A stretch of DNA of 64,000 bases from Sabellastarte sp. h YS-2021 (taxonomy: Eukaryota > Annelida > Polychaeta > Sabellida > Sabellidae), in the NCBI GenBank assembly GCA_964017235.1, contig OZ024928.1:4278001-4342000 (forward strand), read 5' to 3'. Below the pieces are notes generated by a model that worked only from the letters and a program-made list of their open reading frames with translations, searched no databases and had not been told where the DNA came from. Each line of letters starts with the position of its first letter. Position 1 is the stretch's first letter. A program made the position numbers and the translations under genes. Shown piece after piece: positions 14,429-57,345 of the stretch.

Positions 14429-14805
14429 CTAGAATCCCTTGATGTGTCCGTAGCTCTCTAGAGAGGACAGTAGGATATAGAACCCCCAGAGAGTGAAGTA
14501 GAACAGCGCCGTTGGGATCTTGTACTTCCTGGGGCCGCCCAGTTCTCCGCCAATGGACGGTCTTCTGCGGATGAGCATCAACAGGACAGCCACGAAGGCA
14601 AAAACTACATATATTGTGACGGAGAAGGCCAGGCTTCCTGGCTCCACCTTGAACTTCCCACCAATGGCCTTGTGGTAAATGGCAGCAATGGACCAGGCAA
14701 TCCCAATTCCTAAGAACACGTTGACAGCATTACTTCCTGTCACATTGCCCACTGAGGAGTCTGCATACTCGTCACCTATGGCAGCTACTTTACTGGCAAA
14801 GGTGT
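14429..14805 (-). CDS. NCX: Na+/Ca2+ exchanger, terminal coding exon
   Basis: The exon encodes the C-terminal 124 residues of an SLC8-type exchanger, which swaps three Na+ for one Ca2+ at the plasma membrane. On the minus strand the acceptor TGTCTGTTTCAG is followed by DTFASKVAA, then the second alpha-repeat signature GNVTGSNAVNVFLGIG, two more hydrophobic segments, the RRRP-x-IGGELGGPR loop, a last membrane segment and the family's C-terminal LESYGHIKGF, with TAG at 14429-14431. The first two bases complete the Asp of LPD with the G ending exon 24079-24237. Length and motif order match vertebrate NCX1. No frameshift or missing residue is seen. The 3' UTR extends to lower coordinates. Confidence 0.95.
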
Positions 14806-15268: not shown

Positions 15269-15391
15269 GGCGCGTGCACAGTTCAGACGAATTTTATTTG
15301 GTGAGATATATTTTCAATTTTAAAGGTTAATATTGCTGTTTTTTATTGTGTGTCACCTTCATTGTACTGTATAGAACTCTTAGATCCTATA

Positions 15392-17482
15392 ATGTCTTCC
15401 CCGGGACAAAAACATGGTGGTTGTGGCCATTTAATGGCCGGGTTTGACACACACAGTTTTTGTGCTAGATGCAGGGAGAAGTGTAAGGGACCTGATCCCT
15501 GTGTTTCTAAGAATGATTGTCACGCCTGTAATATACTGACAGAGGATCAACGTCTTCAGTTATCCACCCCCAGCTACAGAATTAAAAAAGAAAAGCGTGA
15601 GTCAAAAAAGCAAGGTGACACTCCACAGAAAAGCTCAGACAGTTCCTCCCTCATTGACCCGTCCATTGTGACGGTAGTGGGGGCTGTGGACGACCAGGGG
15701 ATGCTACAGTCCCCTGGTTCGAGCTCAGGGGCAGATAAGAAGAAAAAAGACAAGAAACCAGCTCCAGAGAAGCCTAAATCTGGTAAATCCAAGTCTACTG
15801 ATCCCAAGCCCTCTAAATCTTCTGATGACAGGATAGATGAATTGGATAAAAAGTGGGCTGATCGCTTTAACAGACTGGAGGCTTTGCTTCTCGCCAAGTC
15901 TATTGAACAACCAGAGCCGACTTTCCAGGCTCCCAAAGTTGCACCGACCCACCCCCCACCAGTGGGTGCTGTTAAGTCGTCTGCCCCCTTCATCAGACCT
16001 CCATCCGACCAACCGACCAAGTCAGATTTGTCTGGTACCGGCTATTCAACCCCTCAGGGACAGGTTGCCAGCAAATCGCCTCAGCCCAGCAAACAGAAAC
16101 GTTCTTCCAGCACAGACTTGTCTGGTACTGACACCAAGAAGCAGTCTACTAGCAAGTCAATCTACACTCAGATCAACACCGGCCGACCTTCAGATTTGTC
16201 TGGCACCGGCTCTCCTGTAGCTTATCAGGTTACCAGCAAATCGACTGCTACAACCAGAGGCCAGAGTATCTCTTCAATGGACACAGATAGTGACAGTGAT
16301 CTCTCCGACTGACCACCGGTCGATCTGTTTGTTGAAGAAGGGCAGCTCTCTGATCCAGACCAGGATCCCTCTACCGACCCCGACCAAATATTGTCTGAAG
16401 AACAGACCTACAGAGAAACTCTCAGAGGTATTCGTTCGTATATGGGTTGGAACCAGATTCCAGATGTAGAATCGACCACTGCAACAGGGGATGATAATCC
16501 CTTTGCTGGACCCAGATCACAACCAGCCGGCAAAGTATCAGTCCGCCTTCCTACTGATGACTGGCTGTGCAACAAAATGGCTAAGTTAAATATCACCCTG
16601 GTGGAAGGGTACCCCTCTCGCAACTCTGAGGCCGGGGGGTTTGTTAAGAGATCAGTTCGTACGTCCACCCAAGTCCCAGACCAAATGGTATGGGTTGTTC
16701 AGTGACCAGAAATCTTCTACTGCCAGCAGAGATTCGGTTACGTCATGGAATACGGACGCATCCAAACTCAATAGTTTATACAGCAGGATAGCTAGGGCTG
16801 CCGGCATTGCTGCAACCCCACCTCCATCCAGACAGATTACACACGACAATTTGAGGAGATGGGAAAAGTCGGCCCGTGAGGCTTCTACTTACTGTAACCA
16901 GGCGGCTGGGTTTAATAGATGCCTCCTAAAGGTGCAAGAAAATACACATAGCCAGTTGAAAATTCTCAAGTCTGAGCTCAGCAAAGGTAAAGGCTCGTCT
17001 AAAGTCTCAAGTGCTGTAGAAGAACTTCAGTTCCTCACTGATTTCAACTCAAACATTTCACAAGCCATGGCCAAGACTATGGAACATTTGAGTGATTTTG
17101 TATTTGTTGCTGTAGCCAACTCAACACTGGCCAGACGGGACGCCTATCTGTCACATTTGAAGGCTGGCATCAAACCAGATACCCTGGCTTCACGGCTTCA
17201 CTTCGTACAGCACCTCTACAGATGAACACCCTGTTCCCAGATGAAATACTTAAACAGGCAGAACAGGACATCGCTAATTTTGAGGCCAAGAACCAGCCAC
17301 CCTCTTCTTCAAAGAAGGGTCGTTTCCACCCGTATGATAGATCTGACAGGCATACGGACAACAAGAAACAGGATAGGCCTGCATGGAAGAATCTGGGATA
17401 CCGTGGTCAGAGCAAGAGAGGCAGAGGCAAGACCTCCCACTACTCTTCGCGACCGGCCAAGGGGCAGCAGTCCTACAAATGA
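15392..17482 (+). pseudogene. DIRS-A gag-like ORF, broken in three places
   Basis: The frame begins MSSPGQKHGGCGH and has a Cys-rich head (CGH, CARCREKC, DPC, CHAC), a Lys/Ser/Pro-rich low-complexity middle with repeated DLSGTG words, a folded region around YMGWNQIP, and a basic tail ending RGKTSHYSSRPAKGQQSYK. Lesions: an in-frame TGA at 16310-16312; an extra G in the run 16634-16639 that shifts the frame (the decayed copy DIRS-B has one base fewer here); and an 8-bp tandem duplication GGCTTCAC at 17186-17201 that shifts it again. Each segment between lesions reads on in the expected frame. Its role would be RNA binding or particle formation, by analogy with other gag proteins. Confidence 0.8.
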
Positions 17483-17570
17483 CAATCAATTTGTAGTTCT
17501 ATCAGCACAGGGACTGCTGCCCGGGAGCTTAAAGACAAGGAAACAGTCTCCCAAGTGTACCAACAAGACA

Positions 17571-19802
17571 ATGAACAGTTTATGTGTAAATTCAAGTGTT
17601 GTAGAACATGTACTTTTTGTAAAAGGGCAATCGCAAAAGAAAGATATAAGTCCCGTTATTGTACCAATTTGCAAAGAAAAATTAAAGTCTGTGAAAAATG
17701 CTTCTTTTGTCACTCACTTGTCTTGTGCTCAACCTGCAAAAAATGTCAAAAATGTTGCTCAAACTCAAACTGTAGGGGCCAGGCTTCAAAACTTTTGGCA
17801 AACTTGGTTGGATCTGGGTACGGGTCCGAAGGTGGTTCAGACCCTAAGAGAGGGTTACATTCTTCCCTTTCGGATCCGACCAAAACTAGCAAGGTACCCC
17901 CCAGTCATAAGCCGTTATGTAGATCCTCACAGGAACAGCTACCTGTTAGAGGCATTGCATCAGCTTATGGACAAAAATGCAGTGGAACTAGTGCAAAACC
18001 AGGCCTCCCTAGGGTTTTACAACCGACTATTTTTAGTCCCAAAACCAAACAACAAGTGGAGGCCCATCCTGGACTTGAGCAAACTAAATCTTTTCCTCAA
18101 GGTGGAGAAATTCAAGATGGAAACACCGGAAACCATCAGGACCTCCCTTCAGACAGGGGAGTGGGTCACCTCTATAGACTTCAAGGATGCCTACTTCCAC
18201 ATTCCTATACAGGAACAGTCCAGGAAATACCTAAGATTTCATGTCCAGGGTCAAACATACCAATTCAAGGCTCTGCCCTTTGGTCTGTCCACAGCACCCT
18301 TGGAATTCACAGTAGTAGCAAAGGAAGTGAAACTGATGGCTCTATACAAGGGTATAAGGATCCACCAGTACCTAGACGACTGGTTGGTGAGAGCCACATC
18401 CCACCAGGTTTGTCTCCAGCATACCAAGTTATTAGTCCAGATCTGTCAGGACCTAGGTTGGCTGGTAAATCTAGAGAAATCAGAACTGGAACCCAAACAG
18501 GTCTTCGACTTTGTAGGTTATCAGTTCGACCTCCAGTCAGGTCGGGTCCGACCCACATCAGAACGCTGGCAGAACCTCCAGCAGAAAGTACTGGGACTGT
18601 TAGCCCTACCGACCTGTCCGGTCCGGGAGTTCATGTCCCTAATAGGGTTGCTAACAGCCACAGAAAAGCAAGTTCATCTGGGACGTCTCCACATGAGACC
18701 AATTCAGTGGCATTTGAAAAACCATTGGAGAGTACCAGAATCTCTGGAGAAAATTATTCCAGTTCCCAGGTCCCTGCACCCTCATCTACAATGGTGGTTG
18801 GAAGACGTAAACGTACTCACAGGTCAACCACTACACCCTCTGAAACATGCTCTGCAAATTTTTACAGACGCATCAAAAGAAGGGTGGGGCGCTCACTTAG
18901 ACGAGCACACTGCAAGAGGAACCTGGTCCTTGCCAGAAAGCAAACTGCATATAAATTACCTAGAACTCAAGGCAGTTTTTCTAGCCTTAAAAGAGTTCCA
19001 AAAGCTTTGCTTCAGCAATATTGTTCTGATAGCTACAGACAACACTACAGTGGTGTCATACATAAACAAGGAAGGAGGCATGAGATCGGGCACACTTTGT
19101 GTCCTACTGTGGAGGATCTTGACCTGGTGTACCAAAAATCAAGTCACCCTCAAGGCCCGACACATTCCAGGCCGGCTGAATGTGGTAGCAGACAAGCTAT
19201 CCAGGCTAGGCCAGATCATTCAGACGGAATGGTCCCTCCTTCCAGAGGTATTTCAAACAATTTGCTGCAGGTGGCACCGGCCTCAGATAGACCTTTTTGC
19301 CACAAGGTTCAACAACAAACTACCTCAGTTTGTTTCTCCAGTACCGGACTCCATGGCCATTGCAGTGGATTCCCTCAGTTTGCCATGGGAGGATCTGGAT
19401 GCCTATGCCTTCCCACCAATAGCTCTGTTGAGCAAAGTGGTGGAGAAGTTGCAGGACTCCCCATGCAAGAGCATCATCCTGATCGCTCCGGGGTGGCCCA
19501 ACATGCCTTGGTTCTGGGATCTGGTGTCCATGTCCAGCCAGATACCCTTAAGTCTGCCATTTCTGCCCAAACTTCTGACTCAGCCCTTCAATCAGACTCC
19601 ACACAGAAACCTGTCACACCTCAATCTTCATGTTTGGCTCTTAGAGCCACAACAATCAAAGAACAGGGCTTCTCTGAGGCAGTGGCGGCAAGAATTGAGG
19701 CTCCTCAAAGGCAGTCAACCAGATCAGTCTATGAAGCAAAGTGGACCATTTTTACAAAATGGTGTATCACTAATCAGGTGGACTTCAGGGCACCCCCTGT
19801 GA
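17571..19802 (+). CDS. DIRS-A reverse transcriptase/RNase H polyprotein
   Basis: The first sensible ATG in this frame is at 17571. Reverse transcriptase motifs follow in order: FYNRLFLVPKPNNKWRPILD (from about 18013), the catalytic TSIDFKDAYFHIP (about 18168), LPFGLSTAP, and YLDD at 18369-18380. RNase H follows with FTDAS (Asp codon at 18867), YLELKAV, a TDNTTVVSYIN segment and ARHIPGRLNVVADKLSR. The last ~200 residues (PQIDLFATRFNNKLP, LIAPGWPNMPWFWDL) match the region often described as a methyltransferase-like domain in DIRS elements. The frame is uninterrupted to TGA at 19800-19802. It overlaps the recombinase frame throughout. Upstream codons in this frame back to 17241 are only the shadow of gag. 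Confidence 0.9.
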   Translation: MNSLCVNSSVVEHVLFVKGQSQKKDISPVIVPICKEKLKSVKNASFVTHLSCAQPAKNVKNVAQTQTVGARLQNFWQTWLDLGTGPKVVQTLREGYILPFRIRPKLARYPPVISRYVDPHRNSYLLEALHQLMDKNAVELVQNQASLGFYNRLFLVPKPNNKWRPILDLSKLNLFLKVEKFKMETPETIRTSLQTGEWVTSIDFKDAYFHIPIQEQSRKYLRFHVQGQTYQFKALPFGLSTAPLEFTVVAKEVKLMALYKGIRIHQYLDDWLVRATSHQVCLQHTKLLVQICQDLGWLVNLEKSELEPKQVFDFVGYQFDLQSGRVRPTSERWQNLQQKVLGLLALPTCPVREFMSLIGLLTATEKQVHLGRLHMRPIQWHLKNHWRVPESLEKIIPVPRSLHPHLQWWLEDVNVLTGQPLHPLKHALQIFTDASKEGWGAHLDEHTARGTWSLPESKLHINYLELKAVFLALKEFQKLCFSNIVLIATDNTTVVSYINKEGGMRSGTLCVLLWRILTWCTKNQVTLKARHIPGRLNVVADKLSRLGQIIQTEWSLLPEVFQTICCRWHRPQIDLFATRFNNKLPQFVSPVPDSMAIAVDSLSLPWEDLDAYAFPPIALLSKVVEKLQDSPCKSIILIAPGWPNMPWFWDLVSMSSQIPLSLPFLPKLLTQPFNQTPHRNLSHLNLHVWLLEPQQSKNRASLRQWRQELRLLKGSQPDQSMKQSGPFLQNGVSLIRWTSGHPL

Positions 19803-20716
19803 AGTCGGTTGCTGACTTCCTCATGTACCTTTTCCAGGACAGGAAGTTACAACCCAGTACCATTGATGGGTACAGGTCTGCCATCGCTGATAAGCTAGGA
19901 AATTCGTCCAGTAACATCAGCAAAGATGAAAACCTCACCCGTCTCCTGGATAGCTTCCACAGAGACAGGCCAAAGGGGCGGAGAGGTATCCCCTCTTGGA
20001 ACCTCTCTTTGGTCTTACATCAGCTGGCCAAGGCCCCTTTTGAACCCCTTAAAGAGGCTTCCTTGAAACATCTAACTTTCAAGACAGTGTTCCTATTAGC
20101 CCTGGGTTCAGGCAAACGCAGAAGTGAGATTCATGCTTGGCAGAACAAAAACATCAGACACCAGGCTGACTGGTCAAAAGTGTCCCTGTACCCCTCACCC
20201 AGCTTTCTCTCAAAGAATCAGCTGGCCAAGGAGGGCCCAGAGAGTGTGGCCCCAGTGGTTATCCCAGCCCTGGCCCCAACTCTGGACAGATCCCTCAAGT
20301 CTGACAGGTCCCTTTGCCCAGTCAGAGCCTTGCGCTACTACCTGGATAGGACCTCAGACCTCAGGCAGAACAAGGAGTTAGTCTTTATCTCCTTTAAGAA
20401 AGGTTTCGATAAGGACATATCCCCTGCCACCATCTCCTCATGGATCAAGCAGACAGTGATCCTATGTTATGAGCTCTCTGAACAGGAGTCGCACACTCTC
20501 CATCAGGTCAAGGCTCATGATGTCAGAGCCTTTGCAGCTTCTAAGGCCTTCCAGTCGGGAGTCTCCTTGGAACAAATTTTATCAGCCTGCCACTGGAAAT
20601 CACATAACACCTTCACACAGTTCTACTTGAAGGACGTGGCGTGGGCTGATTCAGAGCTCTTCCATCTAGGCCCGGTAGTGGCTGCTCAGCAGATCCACCA
20701 ACAGGCCAGTGCCTAG
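17582..20716 (+). CDS. DIRS-A long ORF: Cys-rich head, overlap with RT, tyrosine recombinase tail
   Basis: This frame is open from the gag stop (17480-17482, same frame) to TAG at 20714-20716; the first ATG is at 17582. Residues 1-65 contain 15 cysteines in CxxC/CCxxC-type spacing, a plausible zinc-binding module. The next ~600 codons overlap RT in another frame without a stop. From about 19560 a tyrosine recombinase is clear: an N-terminal SAM-like segment (VYEAKWTIFTKWC), then the catalytic set Arg in GKRRSE (about 20117), His-x-x-Arg in HDVRAF (about 20514), the HW segment in CHWKSH and Tyr in FYLKD (codon 20624-20626). The enzyme would integrate circular cDNA. Whether the whole frame is one protein, or the recombinase starts later, cannot be told from sequence. 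Confidence 0.8.
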   Translation: MCKFKCCRTCTFCKRAIAKERYKSRYCTNLQRKIKVCEKCFFCHSLVLCSTCKKCQKCCSNSNCRGQASKLLANLVGSGYGSEGGSDPKRGLHSSLSDPTKTSKVPPSHKPLCRSSQEQLPVRGIASAYGQKCSGTSAKPGLPRVLQPTIFSPKTKQQVEAHPGLEQTKSFPQGGEIQDGNTGNHQDLPSDRGVGHLYRLQGCLLPHSYTGTVQEIPKISCPGSNIPIQGSALWSVHSTLGIHSSSKGSETDGSIQGYKDPPVPRRLVGESHIPPGLSPAYQVISPDLSGPRLAGKSREIRTGTQTGLRLCRLSVRPPVRSGPTHIRTLAEPPAESTGTVSPTDLSGPGVHVPNRVANSHRKASSSGTSPHETNSVAFEKPLESTRISGENYSSSQVPAPSSTMVVGRRKRTHRSTTTPSETCSANFYRRIKRRVGRSLRRAHCKRNLVLARKQTAYKLPRTQGSFSSLKRVPKALLQQYCSDSYRQHYSGVIHKQGRRHEIGHTLCPTVEDLDLVYQKSSHPQGPTHSRPAECGSRQAIQARPDHSDGMVPPSRGISNNLLQVAPASDRPFCHKVQQQTTSVCFSSTGLHGHCSGFPQFAMGGSGCLCLPTNSSVEQSGGEVAGLPMQEHHPDRSGVAQHALVLGSGVHVQPDTLKSAISAQTSDSALQSDSTQKPVTPQSSCLALRATTIKEQGFSEAVAARIEAPQRQSTRSVYEAKWTIFTKWCITNQVDFRAPPVKSVADFLMYLFQDRKLQPSTIDGYRSAIADKLGNSSSNISKDENLTRLLDSFHRDRPKGRRGIPSWNLSLVLHQLAKAPFEPLKEASLKHLTFKTVFLLALGSGKRRSEIHAWQNKNIRHQADWSKVSLYPSPSFLSKNQLAKEGPESVAPVVIPALAPTLDRSLKSDRSLCPVRALRYYLDRTSDLRQNKELVFISFKKGFDKDISPATISSWIKQTVILCYELSEQESHTLHQVKAHDVRAFAASKAFQSGVSLEQILSACHWKSHNTFTQFYLKDVAWADSELFHLGPVVAAQQIHQQASA

Positions 20717-21463: not shown

Positions 21464-24078
21464 TTATAGTATTTTATTAATTATATAATTATACATGTAA
21501 TCACAAAGATTTAATCTGTTGATGGAGGTATTTTTCATGAATCAAATAGTACTGAAGATGCAATTCAGTTTAAAACGTAATAAGGCTTTAATTCACACAC
21601 ACACACACAAAAAAAAAACTAAATTTCTGATAGGTAAAAATCTTTTCAAAAGACTTATTTCTAACATTCAATGTATATGAAAGAAATACATGAATAGTAA
21701 TGCACTACTCTGTTTTGAAAAACTTACAACATGAAATATAGATTTCAAAATTAATAATATAATTTAAGATTAATATTTTATACATAAATGAGACAAAAAA
21801 TTACAAATTCAAGATAGCTTCAGTGGTTTAACCTATACAGAAATATATGAACAAAAAATGGAGAGAAAAGTGTACTGAAATAACAAAACATACAACTTTT
21901 TAAAACTGTCATAACTGTGCAGAATCAGATTTATTAACATTTTCAGATGCAAGTTTCTATCTTTGGTTACACATATAAGTCCCAGGAAAAGGTGTAAATG
22001 GGATTCAAACCAAGAAATACTCCATCATATGAATGAAGTACAAGGGAAAATCCCTACTAACCCACACAGTAGTAGTGATATAATCACTTCTTGGGTGCAG
22101 TCACATTCTCCCCTCCACATATGAAATCTGCCCCTGTGTAACTTGCCCTTTTCACAGTAACCAGCATCACTGGCTCCGCACTATGCGATAAATGAAACCA
22201 CGAGGCCCTTGGTAGTAAATGTCAGAAAGACAGTGTTTACAAGGGAATTAACCCACAACCTGTCATCCTAGAGATCCACACTCAACCAGGCAAGTGAAAT
22301 CCAAGCCACGCCAGTAGTGATTTGACCATTGCCTGTCATATATACAGGATGGGAACTTATGATTGTAAAAAGAAGGCCAGGTATTTACAATAACACATTA
22401 ACCCAAGTCTAGTCCAGAGTTTTAATGTACACCAACTGGAAGCAAAATGTGCGGATGATGTAAACAGATCAATAAAAAATAAACTGTAAAGGAAAATTTT
22501 ATGTTGAAAGATTATGTAAGGTAATCAAATATGACCTAATATTTAAGGTTTCCATAGGGTTTAATTACTTTGGTACAACATATTAGCAATATATGTATGA
22601 CAATTTCAGATTGGGGAATTTGTGTTTCAAGGACATTGGCCTATCAGAGAGCCAACATAGTAGCCTTTCAATCGTTTAAAAACTGCGCGTAAAGCTTACC
22701 CTCAGAACATTCAGAAGTCAAGCAGGTATCAGGCAACCTGAACAAAAGTAACAACAGTTATCCAACAAAAAAAAAAACAATAAACGCTTTAACCAATGCA
22801 CAAATATAAACAGCAGAAACATGCACACTTAACTAAATAGCTTGTACACTTCAGGCATGACAACATAAAGTGGCAAAGATGTGACTGACTCATAAACACT
22901 AAGAAAGGATGAAATTTTTGTAATGTAGGAAAAATAATTATTTAATTGAGCTGGTGATTCATGAATGTATAATTTTATTACATTTTCAATTATTGAAGCC
23001 CACAGGAAGCTTTGGCATTAATTTTTAGATTTACAAAAGGTGAAACCTGCTAACATACAACATTTGCCATTGCAGAATTCTCTGTATTTAATTTTAGTTT
23101 TTGAACACTGTACAGACTTCTTTTTGGATAATTTTGGCCTTTAGACTAACCTGTCACAGAATTTTTTAAGGTATTGCCAAGTATTAAGTTCCAAAGGTAA
23201 GCTACCGTAATTCAATAACATAACAGCTTATACTTTATTCACATAAATCTGATTATTGATACAAATAACATAACTCCTTATATCACTATTTTCCCCCAAA
23301 ATGAACATCGCTTTAACAGAAATAATCTGTCTTCACAGAATTTCACAAGCTTACACAAAGTTAAGCATTTCTTCCACTATGACACCACATCCCAAAGGCA
23401 TGTTTGAGTCTCCGTACACTCTGTATATAACTCTATGTTGTGTTTGTTCCTTTTCAACTCCTTGTGTAAATGCATCAGATCAACTCGTATTTGTTCAAAA
23501 TTTTGACATATTATATCATAAGTCACAGCGAGAAGATAAACTAGATGATCAAAATTCATTATTATGTAAGTGGCAAGAACTGGTGCTTGTACATGAATTA
23601 ACACTTAACTATGGTAAATACTGATAAATCATGTTTTTACTTAAAAACAACAAGTGGTGTGGATAACTGATATGGAACAACATAAAAAATATGAAACAAA
23701 ATAAACAAAACACCAATATAAGAACTTCTGAATATGCATAGAAAATATTAAAACTCCACAAATACACTCAAATGTCTCAGTGATCCACAAACTGGAACAT
23801 AACATGCCGTTCCCAAAACATCAAGCAGAAGGCAAATAGGGTCATGCTTATGTTGACATCAATAAAACGAACCAAAAAAAAACCCTAACAAAGTTTTTTT
23901 AAAAGAAAATATATTGTGGAAATATCTCTGAAACAAGAAAATATCATTATTCAACAGGGAGAGACAGTTAGTTGACTTGGGAACACAGCAGAGACAGCAA
24001 TACAGTGGTGTAACCAGCTTTAAAACATCCCCAGCAAACAGCAAATTCCTTTGGGAAACCACATTGGCTCAGTAATAC
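21464..24078. other. NCX intron, no gene seen
   Basis: This is the AT-rich rest of the intron between NCX exons 24079-24237 and 14429-14805. A moderately GC-richer stretch at about 21960-22430 may be an unidentified old repeat. I find no splice-bounded open block with similarity to NCX and no clear transposon ends. Confidence 0.5.
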
Positions 24079-24237
24079 CTGGGAGGCTTGTTCCCAAGGC
24101 GACAAAGGTGATTGAGGTGACAGCATCCTTCATCCCCACTGTGCAGCCAAAAACTGAGGCTAGATCTCCAACAAGGGCAGTCAGGAGGCCAATAACAAGG
24201 ATAGCCACCCAGAAACAGGCCCAGCCACCCCAGTAGT
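24079..24237 (-). CDS. NCX: Na+/Ca2+ exchanger, penultimate coding exon (start of second alpha repeat)
   Basis: This 159-bp exon is phase 1 at both ends. It reads (D)YWGGWACFWVAILVIGLL, then TALVGDLASVFGCTVGMKD, then AVTSITFVALGTSLP, with the last G starting the Asp completed by the terminal exon. This is the second alpha repeat, whose Thr/Ser-Pro-Asp loop lines the ion site. The acceptor is TTTGTATTTCAG and the donor GTATTA (non-optimal at +4/+5). Relative to vertebrate NCX1 it has SVFGC for SHFGC and GMKDAVTS for GLKDSVTA, conservative changes. The acceptor is the last of ten tandem copies of the same splice-site sequence (24232-24610), so its recognition may be sensitive. Confidence 0.95.
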
Positions 24238-24610
24238 CTGAAATACAAAGAGTTAGGTGCAGCAAAAGCCAAGTAACCTGAAATACAGTTAGAAACTGTA
24301 AAAAAGCCCACTAGTCTGAAATATAGGGAGTTAGGTGCAGCAAGAAAACCCAGTAGTCTGAAATATAGGAAGTTAGGTGCAGCAAAAGCCAAGTAGTCTG
24401 AAATATAGAGTAAGAAACTGTAAAAAGCCCAGTAATCTGAAATATAGGGAGATAGGTGAAGCAAGAAAGCCTACTAGTCTGAAATATAGGGAGTTAGGTG
24501 CAGCAAAAAAGCCCAGTAGCCTGAAATATAGAGTTAGATGCTGTAAAGAGTCCCGTAGTCTAAAACAGAGAGAGTTAGGTGCAGCATAAAATCCCGGTAG
24601 TCTGAAATAT
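24232..24610 (-). repeat. tandem array of ~40-bp units, each carrying the NCX splice acceptor
   Basis: Read on the minus strand, each unit holds a pyrimidine tract, TATTTCAG and then ACTACTGGG or a near variant, i.e. the acceptor and first nine bases of the NCX exon. The genuine acceptor has its first exon base at 24237; the copies have theirs at 24277, 24315, 24357, 24397, 24436, 24478, 24520, 24559 and 24601. All nine keep the AG (eight TTTCAG, one TTTTAG). Two unit types (one with GCACCTAACTCCCTA, one with ACAGTTTCTAAC-like sequence) alternate as A-B-A, giving a ~121-bp higher-order period repeated three times. Degenerate copies continue to about 24690 without AG. Confidence 0.9.
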
Positions 24611-25773
24611 AGAGAGCTAGGTAAATTTAGAGAATAAGAAACAGTGAAACGCAGGTCCACTTGTGTGAAATATGAACAGTAGAAAGAAGCCCCAAATCTC
24701 TGACATGCCTTTGGACTGTGGTTTGCTGAAATGTACACAGAGGTCAAACAACTGCCTCATTAGTTGAAATAGATAGATTTGTGCTGTGGTCTGAAACAGC
24801 AACAAAAGATACAGTGTTCCCAACAAACACCTCTTTTTGAATATAAGAGGACAAGCATCCAGATGCACAATAATGTTCCTTATAATAAATATTAGTCACA
24901 CAAGCATTTTGCAGCCTTAATTGTGAAAATAACTTGTCATGATAACATCTCACAGTGACAGTGACATTGTGAGACATACTGCCTTGTAATGGCACTGGGT
25001 CAAACCTCAGTATTGATAGAAGTGTGACAGAGTTTCATGACAACATATCACAAAACTTGGGTCAACATGAACTGTATGGCAAAGTAACTGTGGTGAATCA
25101 TACTTCTCATTCCAATAGATTCAAAACTGAAACAAAAAATAGAGTGTTGTGTGTTAATTTCAATCATTTACTCACTTATTGATATCTTTCCATTCTTGTT
25201 TATTTTTGTCACACTCTAGGTGTGAAATTTTGTCAATGCATTAATTACAGCTTTAAAATGGTTCTGAGAACTTATATTTTCGCACACAATCTGCTGATAC
25301 TGGCAGTGTGCTACTAACTGTTCCAGCATATTTTTATCCTCCGTTAAAACCTTAGTACAATTTCCACCCAGCTCAAGTGCAATGCTTATTGGTCATACTT
25401 TTTGTCAATACACCTGCTTTTGAAGTTGATAATTGGTTCGGAAGTTGGGTTTTTTCGGTCTTGCTTAGATCTAGTCAGACATGAGGGAAAAAACACAAAA
25501 ATTATTGCATAGAGATGTCAGTGACATGTAATGTCCTGTAATTAAATTATCAACTGGACTAACTCACTAGTGCAGTTTTAACTGGAAAAATACAAAAAAA
25601 AAATACCACCCTGAAAAACACAACCTTAATGGGTCTTTCACAGTTGTCTGCAAGATTAGTGATATTATCAGAAAGTGGGTTAGTATACTGTTTTACCTAA
25701 CCAAATCAAACCCTCAAACAACCAAAACAACTCTACTACTGGACGACAATAATAACACACAGATATTTAATAA
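24611..25773. other. NCX intron, no gene seen
   Basis: Apart from decayed array units up to about 24690 I see only AT-rich intron sequence up to the end of the family-A element. No open block with splice sites resembling NCX is present. Confidence 0.5.
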
Positions 25774-33285: not shown

Positions 33286-33770
33286 TAAACCCTGTCCCAA
33301 CCCACACACTGCCAAATTTTCAGATTACTGACCACTGTCCCTACCCACACACTGCCAAATTCTCAGACAGATGACCACTGTCCCTACCCACACATTGCCA
33401 TGTTCTCAGATTGCTGACCACTGTCACTACTCACACACTGCCAAGTTCTCAGATTACTGACTACTGTCCCTTACCACACACTGCCAAGTTCTCAGATTAC
33501 TGACTTAACTGTCCCTTACCACACACTGCCAAGTTCTCAGATTACTGACTTAACTGTCCCTTACCACACACTGCCAAGTTCTCAGATTACTGACTTAACT
33601 GTCCCTTACCACACACTGCCAAGTTCTCAGATTACTGACTTAACTGTCCCTTACCACACACTGCCAAGTTCTCAGATTACTGACTTAACTGTCCCTTACC
33701 ACACACTGCCAAGTTCTCAGATTACTGACTACTGTCCCTTACTGTCCCTACCAACACAATGTGTCCCCAC
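33286..33770. repeat. 45-bp minisatellite
   Basis: Units contain ACACACTGCCAAGTTCTCAG and ATTACTGACTTAACTGTCCC. About five consecutive copies between about 33477 and 33725 are identical; the copies to the left (from 33300) are shorter and diverged. It lies directly outside the 5' end of the family-B element. Confidence 0.92.
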
Positions 33771-36917: not shown

Positions 36918-37045
36918 GATGGCAGTGACGCTATCCTTGAGGCTGATTGTACAGCCAAAATGGCTGGAGAAGTTGTTTACCAATGCGGTGAGACAGCCAA
37001 TCACCACCATGGAGACAACAAATGCCTCCACACTTCCCCAGTAGT
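36918..37045 (-). pseudogene. NCX: decayed duplicate of the NCX second-alpha-repeat exon
   Basis: On the minus strand the block reads DYWGSVEAFVVSMVVIGCL, TALVNNFSSHFGCTISLKD, SVTAI, clearly paralogous to exon 24079-24237 and in places closer to the general family (SHFGC, LKDSVTA). The similarity ends after SVTAI: the FVALGTSLP part and the donor are missing. The acceptor position has CTG where AG is required (TGCCTTTCTG before ACTACTGG), and the conserved GD of GDLAS is NN. It lies in the 28.3-kb intron between NCX exons 52576-52695 and 24079-24237. It looks like a former alternative exon that has died; as it stands it cannot be spliced in the normal way. Confidence 0.88.
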
Positions 37046-38239
37046 CAGAAAGGCACATGCGGAGAAAAGGAAGTACAAAATACCGTGCAGCAAGAGGTTC
37101 AAGGAACAATGGTTAGGTGTAAAGATTAGTAGAAATAAGGAGGAACTCACAGCAGCAAACCCAAATCTGTTAAGATGAAAGACAAATCTCAAGGACAAAT
37201 ATGTCTGGATAAGCAGGAATTTCATATACAGTAACCTAATTATTTATACAAAATACCTTCTTATGACCAGTTGTTCACTTCTACGTAGAATAAATGGTTA
37301 TAATAATAACTTGATTTGTGGTGTTGGCTGGGAGGCCAGGGCAGGGGAGAAACAGAAATATTTGCAGGAAGAAATATTGGCCTGAATTTGGTAAAGAGTA
37401 AAGACAAATATTTTTCAAAGAAAAAAAGTGTGACTGCTAGAAATTTTAAATAGATAAGTACATATTAGTACACAAGGCTTTCTTAAAATTTACCAGTTGT
37501 CTTTTAACATTAATGAAGAACTAGTAGCAGGGAATATTTACCTATAATTTACAAGAAGAATATTCAACTAAACTCTGTTCAGACTGACGATGAATCTTAA
37601 GTAATCAGAAAAAAGTTCCAGTTAAGAACAAAGTTTAGATAGCAGGGTAAATTTAGATCTTTTGAAAATTGGTGACCAATAGTTAAGTGGCTGATTCCAC
37701 TCATCCATTCTCAGACTGGTCTCAGTCTCAATAAATTTAGGATGTTGACATCTGTACTGAAACGGAAACATCCAGTAAATAGAGATATAAGAGAGGGAGT
37801 TCTGGGTCAGTAAAGAATTTTCAGAATTCTAAAGATAACATGTAGCAGTTAGTATAATTTTAACTTTAACCATCAAGTTTTTATTTCGTTATAGAACTGT
37901 ATTGAAAGTACATCTTGCAGCAATTTACCAAACTGCATTATTTCAGACTTTGTTAGAATTAGAATTGTTTATTAGAAAATCCTAGTATTCTAAGAATATT
38001 CATAAACAAGAAGTCTTCTAAGAATAAGAATGTTAGTACATATCACCTGAGTCCTGATCCCTGAGATTTGGTGGTACAGCAGTTGTGATTGGTTGCTTTG
38101 GTAAAACAATAGTCAGTAAATAGTCTTGGAATGGCTAAATGTGAGTGAGGCTTTTAGTGTGAAAATTAGTAGGTCTTATTCACAGCAAAAATGGTACTAG
38201 CTAAATTGCAGAATCCCCCTCCCAGAAATGATGGAACCA

Positions 38240-44965: not shown

Positions 44966-46649
44966 TTCAGTCAACATATCGACAGATGACTGGTTATGTA
45001 AGAAGTTGGATAAACTGAACCTCACACTAGTTGAAGGCTACCCTTCTAGGAGTTTGGAGGCTACTGATTTGCAATGTAACCAGTACACCGGGACTGCCAA
45101 GTCTCAGGATTGGATATAGTTTACACACCAGCAAAGACAAGGATTCCAGTTCAATTTCCTATTGGTATTATAAATCTGCCAGACTGAACATTTTCACATC
45201 CAGGGTCAGTCCCAGCAGTTCACAACACCCATGGAATTTACAGTAGTGATGAAGGTCAAATTGATGGTTTTACACAGGGTATAAGAATCTACCAGTACTT
45301 AGATGACTGGTTGGTCAGAGCCAGATCCCACCAAACCTGTCTCCAGCATAAACATACTCTAGCAGCTCTGTGTCAGGAGCTAGGTTGGTAAACAGGAAAA
45401 AATCAGAACTGGACCCCAAACCACTTAAACAAGTGTTCAACCTCATACGTTACCAGTTAAACCTCAAGGAGGGCAAGGTCAGACCCTGTCGCCCACAGTG
45501 CTGGAAAACCCTGAATGCAAAGATTCAGAAACTGCTCTAAAACCAACATGTCAGGTCAAGCAGCTGATGTCCCTGATAAGGGCTACTGAAAGCTACAGAA
45601 AAACAGGTCCACCTGTGATGGCTACATATGAGACCTATACAGTGGCACCTGAAAAGGAATTGGAAGATTCCAGAATCTCTAGAAAAGGTGGTCCCTATCC
45701 CCAGGTCACTCCCTCCTCAGCTAAAGTGATGACCATATGAAGAAAATGTTCTTCAAGGTCTACCACTACACTCAGGTGTTCTCTGCCAATCTTCAAAAGA
45801 AGGGTGGGGCACTAACTTAGGAGAGCACACTATAAGGGGAACCTGCTCCCTCCCAGAAAGCAGGTTGCACTGGTCTGCTGTGGAAGGATCTGGACCCTCA
45901 TGCCTTCCCACCAGTAGCCATCTTGGGCAAAGTGCTGGAGAAGTTTCAGGACTCTCTGTGCAACAGAATTATTCTGATTGCTCCAGGGTGGCCCACCATA
46001 CCCTGGTTTTGGGACCTAGTGACCATGTCAGGTCAAATTCCACTGTACCTGCCCAATCTGCTAACCCAGCCATTCAGTCACTTCCCTCACAGGATTCTAC
46101 CAAACCTAAATCTCAATGTCTGGCTCCTGGAGCCTCAGTTATCAACTAGAGGATCGCTCGCAAAAAAAAAAGATAATGTTTTTGCATAGCAAAAACAAAG
46201 CGTCCCGAAAAGGATATAAAGGTGAGTGCTAAAGTATTAAGAAAATGCTTCGTTTCTAGCCTTATACTGTTGTGGCAACCAAAGTCAGCGCAGTCTGCTC
46301 TATCTAGCACGGTTTTCAAGATATAAGCATTTTTGTGTTTTGCAAAAAATAAAAAAATTAAAAATGTCCGCTATATTTGGCGAGACAAAAATATTTTGAA
46401 AATTGGCATGGCTACTCTGCAGAGATACCCAGCAGGTCAAAAATTTTGTTGAGTTCACTCCATATAGCACGATTTTCGAGATATAAGCATTTTTGTGTTT
46501 TGCAAAAACTTTGAAAATTCAAAATGGCCACCATTTTTGGGGAGACAAAAATTTTTGTCAAGACCACTGCCGTGGTGTGTATCTCCCGCCGAGCATTAAA
46601 GCAGAAGAAATAGCTTTTCCGAGATATTCACAATTTTTCATTTTCGTGT

Positions 46650-48920
46650 GTGAAAGGTCTTCCAAAAGTAGGTGAATGAGTTATTTGAGAAAAATTGGCT
46701 ATCTGCAATACTATTAAGAGATAATTCACATTTACTCATTTTGAGTAGGTGAATAATTATCTATGGGTCTGAAACTTCACCAAGTGAAAGCTCTCCCAAA
46801 AGTAGGTGAATGAGTTATTTGAGAAAAATTGGCTATCTGCAATACTTTTAGAGATAATTCGCATTTACTCATTTTGAGTAGGTGAGTAATTAGCTATGGG
46901 TCTGAAACTTCACCATGTGAAAGCTCTCCCACAAGTAGATGAATGAGTATTTGATAAAAATTGGGTATCCGCAATACTTTTACAGATAATTAGCATTTAC
47001 TCATTTTGAGTAGGTGAATAAATAGCTATGGGTCTGAAACTTCACAGAGTGAAAGCTCTCCCAAAAGTAGGTGAATGAGTTATTTGAGAAAAATTGGCTA
47101 TCTGCAATACTTTTAGAGATAATTCACATTTACTCATTTTGAGTAGGTGAATAATTAGCTATGGGTCTGAAACTTCACCAAGTGAAAGCTCTGCCAAAAG
47201 TAGGTGAATGAGTTATTTGAGAAAAATTGGCTATCTGCAATACTTTTAGAGATAATTCGCATTTACTCATTTTGAGTAGGTGAGTAATTTGCTATGGGTC
47301 TGAAACTTCACCAAGTGAAAGCTCTCCCAAAAGTAGGTGAATGAGTTATTTGAGAAAAATTGGCTATCTGCAATACTTTTAGAGATAATTCGCATTTACT
47401 CATTTTGAGTAGGTGAGTAATTAGCTATGGGTCTGAAACTTCACCAAGTGAAAGCTCTCCCAAAAGTAGGTGAATGATTAATTTGACAAAAATTGGCTAT
47501 CTGCAATACTTTAAGAGATAATTCGCATTTACTCATTTTGAGTAGGTGAGTAATTAGCTATGGGTCTGAAACTTCACCAAGTGAAAGCTCTCCCAAAAGT
47601 AGGTGAATGAGTTATTTGAGAAAAATTGGCTATCTGCAATACTTTTAGAGATAATTCGCATTTACTCATTTTGAGTAGGTGAGTAATTAGCTATGGGTCT
47701 GAAACTTCACCAAGTGAAAGCTCTCCCAAAAGTAGGTGAATGAGTTATTTGAGAAAAATTGGCTATCTGCAATACTTTTAGAGATAATTCGCATTTACTC
47801 ATTTTGAGTAGGTGAGTAATTAGCTATGGGTCTGAAACTTCACCATGTGAAAGCTCTCCCGCAAGTAGATGAATGAGTTATTTGATAAAAATTGGGTATC
47901 CACAATACTTTTACAGATAATTAGCATTTACTCATTTTGAGTAGGTAAATAATTAGCTATGGGTCTGAAACTTCACCATGTGAAAGCTCTCCCAAAATAG
48001 GTGAATGAGTTATTTGAGAAAAATTGGCTATCTGCAATACTTTTAGAGATAATTCGCATTTACTCATTTTGAGTAGGTGAGTAATTGGCTATGGGTCTGA
48101 AACTTCACCATGTGAAAGCTCTTCCAAAAGTAGGTGAATGAGTTATTTGAGAAAAATTAGCCATCTGTAATACTTTTAGAGGTAATTCGCATTTACTCAT
48201 TTTGAGTAGGTGAGCAATTAGCTATGGGTCTGAAACTTCACCATGTGAAAGCTCTCCCACAAGTAGATGAATGAGTATTTGATAAAAATTGGGTATCCGC
48301 AATACTTTTACAGATAATTAGCATTTACTCATTTTGAGTAGGTGAATAAATAGCTATGGGTCTGAAACTTCACAGAGTGAAAGCTCTCCCAAAAGTAGGT
48401 GAATGAGTTATTTGAGAAAAATTGGCTATCTGCAATACTTTTAGAGATAATCGCATTTACTCATTTTGAGTAGGTGAGTAATTAGCTATGGGTCTGAAAC
48501 TTCACCATGTGAAAGCTCTCCCGCAAGTAGATGAATGAGTTATTTGATAAAAATTGGGTATCCACAATACTTTTACAGATAATTAGCATTTACTCATTTT
48601 GAGTAGGTAAATAATTAGCTATGGGTCTGAAACTTCACCATGTGAAAGCTCTCCCAAAAGTAGGTGAATGAGTTATTTGAGAAAAATTGGCTATCTGCAA
48701 TACTTTTAGAGATAATTCGCATTTACTCATTTTGAGTAGGTGAGTAATTGGCTATGGGTCTGAAACTTCACCATGTGAAAGCTCTTCCAAAAGTAGGTGA
48801 ATGAGTTATTTGAGAAAAATTAGCCATCTGTAATACTTTTAGAGGTAATTCGCATTTACTCATTTTGAGTAGGTGAGCAATTAGCTATGGGTCTGAAACT
48901 TCACCAAGTGAAAGCTCTTT
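46650..48920. repeat. ~133-bp satellite array, about 17 units
   Basis: Each unit contains GTGAAAGCTCTCCCAAAAGT, AGGTGAATGAGTTATTTGAG, AAAAATTGGCTATCTGCAAT and ATTTACTCATTTTGAGTAGG. A second unit type (CAAGTAGATGAATGAG, AAAATTGGGTATCC) recurs near 46917, 47843, 48249 and 48507. Blocks at about 47830-48240 and 48490-48900 are nearly identical, showing segmental duplication inside the array. Confidence 0.95.
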
Positions 48921-49545: not shown

Positions 49546-50354
49546 ATGATTAATTAATCATTAATTACTCGGCCATTTCTTGACCAATCAATGCCAAAAT
49601 CTAATGATTTCCAGATTTTAATAGAATGAATGCATTTGCCAAGTTTCAGGTGAATTGATAAAATTCCTTTCAAGTTATCATCCGGACAAGCTTCCCCATC
49701 GAAAAAAGACATTTTTGGTCATGTGACCTCTCTGATTGGTTGAAATGTCACTGCAGCATATTCAAAAAAATTCCCCAAGGCTACTGCCTAAACCTGCCAA
49801 ATTTGAAAAGAATCCGCCTAACGGTTACAGAGTTATAAGGAAAACAAAATGCGGAGCCGGCGGAGCCGCAGGAGCCGGCGGAGCCGGCGGAGCCAGAAGC
49901 TCTCCCATACACAAACAAGCGTCCCTTGCGGGACGCTTAATGAGCGAGGTTTGTCTGAGGTAGTGGCAGCACGAATTGAAGCTCCTCAGAGAGTCTCAAC
50001 CAAATCAGTCTATGAGGCTAAGTGAACCATTTTTACAAAGTGGTGCCACAGTAATCAGGTGAACTTCAGGGCAAAGGTTGGTGACTTCCTGTTGAATCTA
50101 TTCCAGCACAGGAAGTTGCGGCCAAGTACAGTTGATAGCTACAGGTCAGCCATTGCAGACAAACTTGGAAATGCACCCATCTATAGTAGCAAAGATGAGA
50201 ATCTCACTTGTCTCTTGGTTAGTTTCCACAGAGACAGACTTAGGGGTCAGAGAGGCATCCCCTCCTGGAACATCCTGTTGGTGGAAACACAGAATGACTT
50301 TGTTTGGTGGGCCAGTGTTGCCAACTGAATTAGCAATTGTCCAATTGGTTAGAG

Positions 50355-52575: not shown

Positions 52576-52695
52576 CCGTCGGTGGGACAAAAGCAAACAG
52601 AACCTTCCAGAAGATAGTGAGGAAGTGCATGACATAATCCATACAGGACGGCAACTTCTCCTCTCCATCCTCATCATCATCGTCATCATCATCCC
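52576..52695 (-). CDS. NCX: Na+/Ca2+ exchanger, antepenultimate coding exon (end of cytosolic loop)
   Basis: The 120-bp exon runs from acceptor CTTACTTTCAG to donor GTAAGTG on the minus strand, entering with two bases and leaving with one, in phase with exon 24079-24237. It encodes a run of acidic residues (seven Asp, then EDGEE), [20 protein letters not shown] and FAFVPPT. This is the end of the large regulatory cytosolic loop and the first membrane segment of the C-terminal half, as in vertebrate NCX1. No further NCX exon was found between here and the window end, so the next upstream intron is longer than 11 kb. The acidic run is encoded by GAT/GAC repeats, a natural spot for length variation. 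Confidence 0.95.
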
Positions 52696-55310: not shown

Positions 55311-55479
55311 CAAGCAATCAGTGCCTGTGAACGGGCTCTGTGTCAGCTGACTGTGATTTGAGTTTCAGAGTAAAAGTGAAAAAACAGAAGTACACAAAAT
55401 TTGTGTCCTGTAAATGGTATTCAGAAGTAAAGTACCAAGTTTACTGTTAAGGTGTAAAATGTAGGTGTAAAATATATTC

Positions 55480-57345
55480 AAACAAAATACTGTAAGTGCA
55501 ATTGCTTTCGAGTTACAACTGATTTACTCAATACCTGAAAATAGCTATTGCTCAGCTGTGTAATGACCTACAGGTCTGCAATTTTACTATGTTGTAGCTA
55601 ACCAAACAGTAGCTGGATAACATATTTAAACAAAATTCTCTAAATGCAGTAGTTTTCTAGTTATAAGTGACTTACTCAACTGTGATATCAGAGTAGCTAT
55701 TGCTCCACTTTCCGATAAGCTACAGGTCTGTAATTTTACTATATATAGCTGACCCATAAGTAGGTGAAGAACATATTTAAACAAAAAACTGTTAATGCAA
55801 TAGTTTTCAAGTTACAACTGATTTACTCAACAGTGATAACCTGAAAATAGCTACTGGTCAACTGTGTAATGAACTACAGCTCTGCAATTTTACTATGTTA
55901 TAGCAGATCAAAAAGTAGGTAAATAACATATTCAAACAAAATACTCTAAATGCAATAATTTTCAAGTTACAAATGATTTACTCAACAACTATACTCTGAA
56001 AGTAGCTTTAGCTCAGCTACGGCATGAGCCACAGGTCTGCAATTTCACTATGTTATAGCTGAAAGAAAAGTAGATGAATAACATATTTAAACAAAATACT
56101 GTAAATGCAATAGTTTTGAAGTTACAAATGATTTACTCAACAGTGAGGGCTAGAAAGTAGCTATAGCTCAGCTATGCACTGAGCTACAGGTCTGCAATTT
56201 TAGTATGTTACCACTGACATAAAAGCAGATGAATAACATATTTAAACAAAATACTGTAAATGCAATAGTTTTGAAGTTACAAATGATTTACTCAACAGGG
56301 AGAACCTGAAAGTAGCAATAGCTCAGCTATGCACTGAGCTACAGGTCTGTAATTATACTATGTTATAGCTGACCCATAAGTAGGTGAAGAATATATTTAA
56401 ACAAATTCATGTAAATGCAATAGTTTTCAAGTTACAACTGATTTACTCAACAGTGAGAACCTGAAAATAGTTACTGCTCAGCTATGTAATGAGCTTCAGG
56501 TCTGCAATTTTACTATGTCATAGCTGACCAAAAAGTAGGTGAATAACATATTAAACAAAATACTCTAAATGCAATAGTTTTTAAGTTACAACTGTTTTGC
56601 TCAACAGTGAGAACCTGAAAATAGCCACTGCTCAGCTATACCTGTATGCCAGAAGCTACAGGTCTGCAACTTCACTATCTTATAGCTAATTGAAAAGCAC
56701 ATGAATAAATGATCAAACAAAATTCTCTAAATGCAACAGTTTTCAAGTTACAATCAATTTACTCAACAGTGACAACATGAAAATAGCTATTACTCAGCTA
56801 TGCCATGAGCTACAGGTCTGCAATTTTACTATGTTATAGCTGACTAAAAAGTTGCTGAATAACATATTTATACAAATTTCTGTAAATGCAATAGTTTTCA
56901 AGTTATAACTAATTTACTCAATAGTGATAACCTCAAAATAGCTATTGCTCAGCTATGATATAAACTACAGGTCTGCAAATTTACCATGTTATAGCTGATC
57001 CAAAAGTAGGTGAATAACATACTTAAAGAATATACTCTAAATGTAATAGTTTTCAAGTTCTAACTGATTTACTCAACAGTGATAATCTCAAAGTAGCTAT
57101 GACCCAAAAGTAGCTGAATAACATCTTTATACAAAATTCTCTGATGCAATAGTTTTCAAATTACAACGGATTTTACTCATTTTGGAAGTTACTGAAAGTT
57201 AAAAAGTAGCTATTACTCACTTAGCTATTGGGATAGACAATCAAGTTACTCACCATGTTGTAGTTATGGAAAAAGTAGCTGAATAACATATTTTAACAAA
57301 ATGCTCTAAATGCAATATTTTTCAAGTTATAAGTGATTTTGTGCA
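55480..57345. repeat. ~155-bp tandem array, about 12 units
   Basis: Units share GAGCTACAGGTCTGCAATTT, TACTATGTTATAGCTGACC, AAAAGTAGGTGAATAACATA, AATGCAATAGTTTTCAAGTT and ATTTACTCAACAGTGA. The anchor CAGGTCTG(C/T)AATT recurs about every 155 bp from 55571 to 56967. The words AGTAGGTGAATAA and ATTTACTCA also occur in the satellite at 46650-48920, suggesting remote kinship. Confidence 0.88.

Follow-up and report, generated by a model that had tools for sequence, protein, structure and literature searches.

Host gene and locus

The window (the whole 64,000-nt stretch that was analysed, to which all bare positions refer) carries on its minus strand the exons of an NCX/SLC8 exchanger gene, one of which is preceded and partly overlapped by a tandem array of acceptor-like units (Table 1). 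The protein obtained from the three joined exons (52695-52576, 24237-24079 and from 14805) matches an NCX1 chain with an E value of 5e-110 over query residues 3-218 of 218, and this homology of the C-terminal exchanger domain to NCX1 places the gene in the SLC8/NCX family. The intron between the 52576 donor and the 24237 acceptor measures 28.3 kb and yields a phase-1 junction (ACG G/AC TAC; here and below a slash marks a splice boundary), while the exon edge at 24237 fits the protein family without a gap. Junction phase and NCX1 match agree with the claim of the sequence-only reading that the last unit in transcript order holds the genuine acceptor, joined to the 52576 donor. A pattern for close NCX relatives was matched by 7 stretches of viral and 40 of prokaryote contigs, none of which was confirmed.

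Table 1. Features of the exchanger locus in window coordinates (offsets are counted from 24237; for decoys the position is the first exon-like base)
Feature	Position	Strand	Details	Basis
Upstream exon	52576-52695	-	120 nt; donor GTAAGT after 52576	
NCX/SLC8 exon	24079-24237	-	159 nt; authentic acceptor before 24237; donor GTATTA after 24079	
Last coding exon	14432-14805	-	acceptor before 14805; stop codon 14429-14431	
Tandem array	24229-24622	-	ten ~41-bp units (38-42 bp)	TRF and unit alignment
Predicted branch-point A	24253	-	CTAAC; 16 nt before exon base 24237	only yUnAy match in -45 to -8
Decoy 1 (nearest)	24277	-	CAG/GTTACT; +40 nt; shifts the frame, with a stop 16 nt into the last exon	
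Decoy 2	24315	-	+78 nt; in frame; immediate TAG	
Decoy 3	24357	-	+120 nt; in frame; stop is the TAG of the next unit	
Decoys 4-9	24397, 24436, 24478, 24520, 24559, 24601	-	+160, +199, +241, +283, +322 and +364 nt; all frame-shifting	

Apart from these features, a dead NCX exon copy lies inside the 28-kb intron (36918-37046, minus strand). It is diverged and truncated (56% protein identity over 43 codons), reads TTTCTG and not TTTCAG at its acceptor, and lacks its 3' part including the donor. Its differences from the NCX exon fall on 19, 9 and 28 of the 43 first, second and third codon positions respectively, a pattern suggesting that the copy was long coding before its death. Homology of its intron end with the array unit was considered and set aside, the 11-bp shared word (P 0.03 by shuffles) being too weak to use. 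On the plus strand, an element at 15350-20716 has RVT_1 and RVT_3 matches above the Pfam cut-off, along with RNase H and tyrosine-recombinase matches below it, a combination known from DIRS-type retroelements. Fragments of proteins similar to those of this element were recognised by eye, without a Pfam match, at 45733-46146 and 50026-50325, and a related element was likewise seen by eye in piece L002.

Anatomy of the acceptor array

The array was called by TRF at a period of 42 (9.7 copies, score 388) and also at a period of 123 (3.2 copies, score 530). Each unit comprises a pyrimidine tract, an AG and ~9 exon-derived bases; on its 3' side the array reaches nine bases into the exon, and on its 5' side it begins ~20 nt before the first exon-like base. 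All ten first-exon positions (24237 and the nine decoys) are preceded by AG, which bears out the earlier description of nine extra tandem acceptor copies upstream of the real one, each with its AG intact. Among the decoy offsets, 78 and 120 are the only multiples of three.

The ten units are 55-93% identical in pairwise comparison, and the array is therefore neither a chance pattern nor simple assembler stutter. Tandem arrays are nevertheless error-prone, and one lancelet array of a similar kind was judged to be aberrantly assembled in the draft genome (PMC3087553); here, divergence of 7-45% between units, location on a 190-Mb contig and a single DNA match in the genome make an assembly artefact exceedingly improbable. 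That single match, the locus itself, came from a DNA search of the 1,785,957,881-bp genome (647 contigs) with positions 24069-24700, in a search that passes over simple repeats and very common words. In this genome the window occupies C2:4278001-4342000. Elsewhere in the 64-kb window the array sequence recurs as two 13-bp matches and nothing more.

Units at a lag of three share 81% identity on average (7 pairs), as against 71% for adjacent units (9 pairs) and 72% for those two apart (8 pairs), which indicates growth largely by three-unit (123-bp) steps. As the nearest relative of the authentic unit is the unit three back (90%), the authentic unit itself seems to be part of this turnover. A search for degenerate older units at 24623-24900 gave a best local match (P 0.02) that contains gaps and has a score of 21, which the remainder of the real exon equals; such units are not claimed. 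The window gave no match to Rfam (at gathering scores) and none in a tRNA scan. Other large arrays of the window lie at 46650-48918 (133 bp x 17.1), 55456-57100 (155 bp x 10.6) and 33302-33742 (45 bp x 10.0), and merged TRF rows cover 15.5% of it.

Acceptor strength and branch points

By a matrix of general base frequencies, the 3' splice-site score of the authentic acceptor is 8.4 and those of the decoys range from 6.2 to 9.1, with two of the nine (24559 and 24436) above the authentic site. The same matrix scores 21 AGs in the 28-kb intron at or above the authentic site, of which three (the authentic one included) lie within the array and 18 elsewhere. This intron is thus rich in acceptor-like strings, and it is their clustering that stands out.

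Seven of the ten units, among them the authentic one, carry a CTRAY motif at a distance of 12-16 nt from the exon start, and unit 24397 has CTTAC at the same place, bringing the total to eight. In units 24601 and 24436 the motif is missing from its usual place, with looser yUnAy matches at -21. The nearest AG upstream of the authentic AG is that of the decoy before 24277, 40 nt away. Under the AG-scanning rule for acceptor choice, as summarised in PMC1431707, this spacing together with the single yUnAy match identifies 24253 as the predicted branch point, and the authentic AG would be served by it alone because of the decoy AG upstream.

Predicted outcome of decoy use

In silico, use of any of the nine decoys truncates the protein. 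The earlier statement that 24315 and 24357 keep the frame and then meet TAG, with the other seven shifting it, is reproduced by the in silico translation, and so is its conclusion that every decoy would truncate the exchanger, subject to one refinement. The decoys at 24277, 24397 and 24436 lead to a stop 16 nt inside the last exon; exon-junction NMD is therefore not expected for these three, and a short frameshifted tail is predicted. For the remaining six of nine, the stop lies 232-455 nt before the last junction, and under the 50-55-nt rule for NMD their truncated messages are expected in silico to be NMD substrates. The exon would be 199-523 nt long with the decoys, as compared with 159 nt with the authentic site. 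The array contains nine GT dinucleotides, of which one directly follows an AG (CAG/GTTACT, at 24277) and none looks strong as a donor by eye. This AG/GT at the 24277 decoy is arranged as in a recursive splice site, with a donor consensus that is poor by eye.

These outcomes bear on the kinetic brake and the unproductive switch that the sequence-only reading had offered as options. On a fuller version of this view, decoys would bind U2AF and U2, splicing of the 28-kb intron would be slowed or diverted, and the exchanger level would be tuned through NMD or intron detention. Such a reading accords with truncation by all nine decoys, with the six early stops and with the two decoys (24559 and 24436) that outscore the authentic site by the frequency matrix. 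Precedents may be found in the OGT gene, where intron detention reportedly requires a decoy exon whose splice sites are weak (PMC12017769), and in some human genes with splicing altered by boundary repeats (PMC2812944). Against it stand the three decoys that would escape junction-dependent NMD, the 18 AGs elsewhere in the intron that score as high as the authentic one, the reported silence of comparable lancelet arrays (PMC3087553, PMC3902484) and the lack of robustness in the signs of selection described below. The brake and switch are unsupported so far, AG retention alone not being statistically remarkable (P 0.105), and we regard them as unlikely.

The OGT case resembles the present one in that intronic splice-site-like sequences could hold the spliceosome while being rarely spliced in; OGT-type decoy exons, however, possess a 5' as well as a 3' site, and their effect has been demonstrated (PMC12017769), whereas the duplicated sites here are 3' sites read from sequence.

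Tests for selection on the decoys

No parsimony step falls in either AG column, yet such columns are not rare among those of the array (P 0.105, hand-adjusted alignment), and the nine-column acceptor core gave P 0.060 in the same alignment. In the hand-adjusted alignment the block from branch point to AG, with 19 of the 42 columns, accounted for 11 of the 43 steps and ranked slowest among 42 rotations (P 0.003, or P 0.026 with the T-run left out; P 0.11 against the exon part alone). In the consensus-register alignment it took 11 of 33 steps and was again the slowest placement, and an equally slow block arose somewhere in 78% of permutations (P 0.78). The same block test on control arrays in the window returned 0.97 (33302) and 0.22 (52990). 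The slowness of this block thus depends on the alignment, and the sequence comparisons give no robust evidence of selection on the decoys in either direction.

A redundant landing platform is likewise conceivable, with repeated branch points and tracts raising local U2AF/U2 occupancy and helping the ordinary acceptor of a 28-kb intron, while the decoys would be bound and left unused. Counting the authentic unit, eight of the ten retain CTRAY (seven) or CTTAC (one) 12-16 nt from the exon start, and the branch-point-to-AG block is slowest in both alignments and significantly so in one. That significance varies with the alignment, and under AG scanning an upstream module would lead to its own AG and hence do harm (PMC1431707); a platform of this kind appears rather improbable.

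A second array and the exchanger paralogs

A protein search of the genome with the joined exons gave at least 12 matches among the 20 candidates scored: three in the window gene, one in the dead exon copy, two in a paralog on contig C5, two in a paralog at 92 Mb of C2 and four on contig C600. The last of these (39,113 bp; pieces L030-L032) carries an exchanger gene with very short introns, unlike those of the host genes, and is possibly foreign (contaminant) sequence.

The paralogous exchanger gene on C2 bears a second array, at ~92.012-92.013 Mb (L016:611-1510), with 18.0 copies of a 50-bp unit at 97% matches that run 7 bp into the exon. All 18 acceptor copies keep AG, reading CAG followed by TTGGGAA or TTAGGAA, 50 nt apart. 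The junction is set by the donor GAACAG/GTAATT joined to TTGGGAACA, and its protein, ALVEQ/LGTLLGC compared with ALVGDLASVFGC, has no gap at the junction. Two of the 17 decoys (L016 1354 and 1204) are in frame without a stop (phase 0). Both unit sequence and intron position differ from those of the 24229-24622 array. Among ten directly readable host NCX acceptors (the window gene contributes three, the C2 gene five and the C5 gene two; C600 was left out as probably foreign because of its short introns and 39-kb contig), two carry such an array, a count that includes the index case and stays within one gene family and is thus not an unbiased rate. In 19 10-kb pieces of the genome (two from C600), there are 21 tandem arrays with a period of at least 10 and at least three copies, covering 6.4%.

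The paralogs also bear on whether the array is an intermediate in boundary evolution, its copies letting the exon edge move (intron sliding) or seeding a new intron. The intron of the window gene (52576) and that of the C2 paralog (L023 ~4630) are offset by 2 nt and so differ in phase (ACG G/gtaagt and CCA AC/gtaagt respectively), a possible case of intron sliding if the two introns are homologous. In the C5 paralog, the open frame continues through the 24237 intron position without an intron, and a model of intron gain through such arrays has been proposed for lancelet globins (PMC3087553). Nevertheless, with its edge at 24237 the exon matches the protein family and needs no gap there, and we hold such an intermediate to be very unlikely.

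Comparison with published boundary repeats

The sequence-only reading had called the repetition of a splice site including exon bases unusual; this judgement does not hold, as structures of the kind have been published as lancelet "mirages" at Adh3, BflGb6, BflGb9, TnC and PGBD5 (PMC3087553, PMC3902484). The array is a real structure of that published kind. It consists of minisatellite-like units spanning an intron-exon boundary, includes the first nine exon bases and has the splice signal (AG) in ten of ten units. As described in those papers, lancelet mirages likewise arise by tandem duplication over the boundary, carry splice signals in many units (AG/GT signals, potential cryptic sites; PMC3087553) and keep the authentic site, and the ~41-bp unit falls within the 10-72 bp of the Adh3 mirage units (PMC3087553). 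The BflGb6 mirage has six units in one haplotype and three in another, and regular splicing is reportedly undisturbed by mirages according to Adh3 data and globin RT-PCR (PMC3087553); undisturbed splicing is suggested for PGBD5, and TnC is cited as reported undisturbed (PMC3902484).

The present case is unlike those accounts in having ten diverged units, in an SLC8 gene and a 1.79-Gb genome, and while some lancelet mirages are backed by length polymorphism and RT-PCR, this array is known from the sequence of one assembly. Lancelet genomes are of ~0.5 Gb, so that the genome considered here is over three times that size and probably belongs to an animal other than a lancelet. A literature search by titles pointed to no exchanger gene with such an array.

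In human segmental-duplication genes, tandem repeats at exon-intron boundaries can yield alternative splicing via novel introns, and 66% of such intron modifications are reported to have repeat-keeping transcripts as well (PMC2812944). The variable repeats of that study, at boundaries or not, average 30-bp units x four. These minisatellites resemble the present array in their position at exon-intron boundaries and may alter splicing or form new introns; they are defined by copy-number differences between paralogs and by transcripts, whereas here the copies lie upstream of one acceptor and are known from sequence. Since the human repeats can alter splicing (PMC2812944), boundary repeats are not always silent.

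Proposed origin and behaviour of the array

Taken together, the array is probably a neutral mirage, that is, a passenger minisatellite that captured a 3' splice site, and not a switch; neutral slippage was also among the options first offered for it. A minisatellite would have incorporated ~32 nt from the end of the intron together with the 9 nt that open the exon, and would then have grown, judging from unit similarity, at first by single-unit duplications and later mainly by the three-unit steps in which the authentic unit took part. As eight of the ten units pack branch-point motif, tract and AG close together, the acceptor would be chosen between compact modules rather than by scanning past the decoys. 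The authentic module probably wins, as it touches the exon body and defines the shorter exon, so that the authentic acceptor would be chosen via its own branch point and exon definition. Occasional use of a decoy would lead to truncated messages, most of them expected NMD substrates, at what may be a tolerable cost.

The neutral reading is favoured by the anatomy of 24229-24622, by the lag-3 pattern and by a second array of the same anatomy on the acceptor of a paralog. By analogy, the haplotype copy-number differences and undisturbed splicing of the lancelet mirages also point towards it, and the sequence comparisons are consistent with it in that neither the AG columns, nor the slow block as seen in the permutations, nor the strength of the authentic acceptor is outstanding. 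Retention of AG in nine of nine decoys would count against neutrality, as would the branch-point-to-AG block being slowest in the hand-adjusted alignment, which is what may be expected if decoys were kept as acceptors. A combined case, in which mirages are common in this genome and the modules of the exchanger acceptor have been kept as a tunable decoy array, copy number setting the share of unproductive mRNA, strikes us as distinctly improbable.

Implications

Ten closely spaced competing 3' splice-site modules before a real exon, and eighteen in the paralog, constitute a natural test of acceptor choice. Furthermore, the two arrays suggest that minisatellites across exon-intron boundaries are present in a further large animal genome besides those of lancelets and the segmental duplications of humans, for which they have been described, and that they could contribute there to the sliding and gain of introns.
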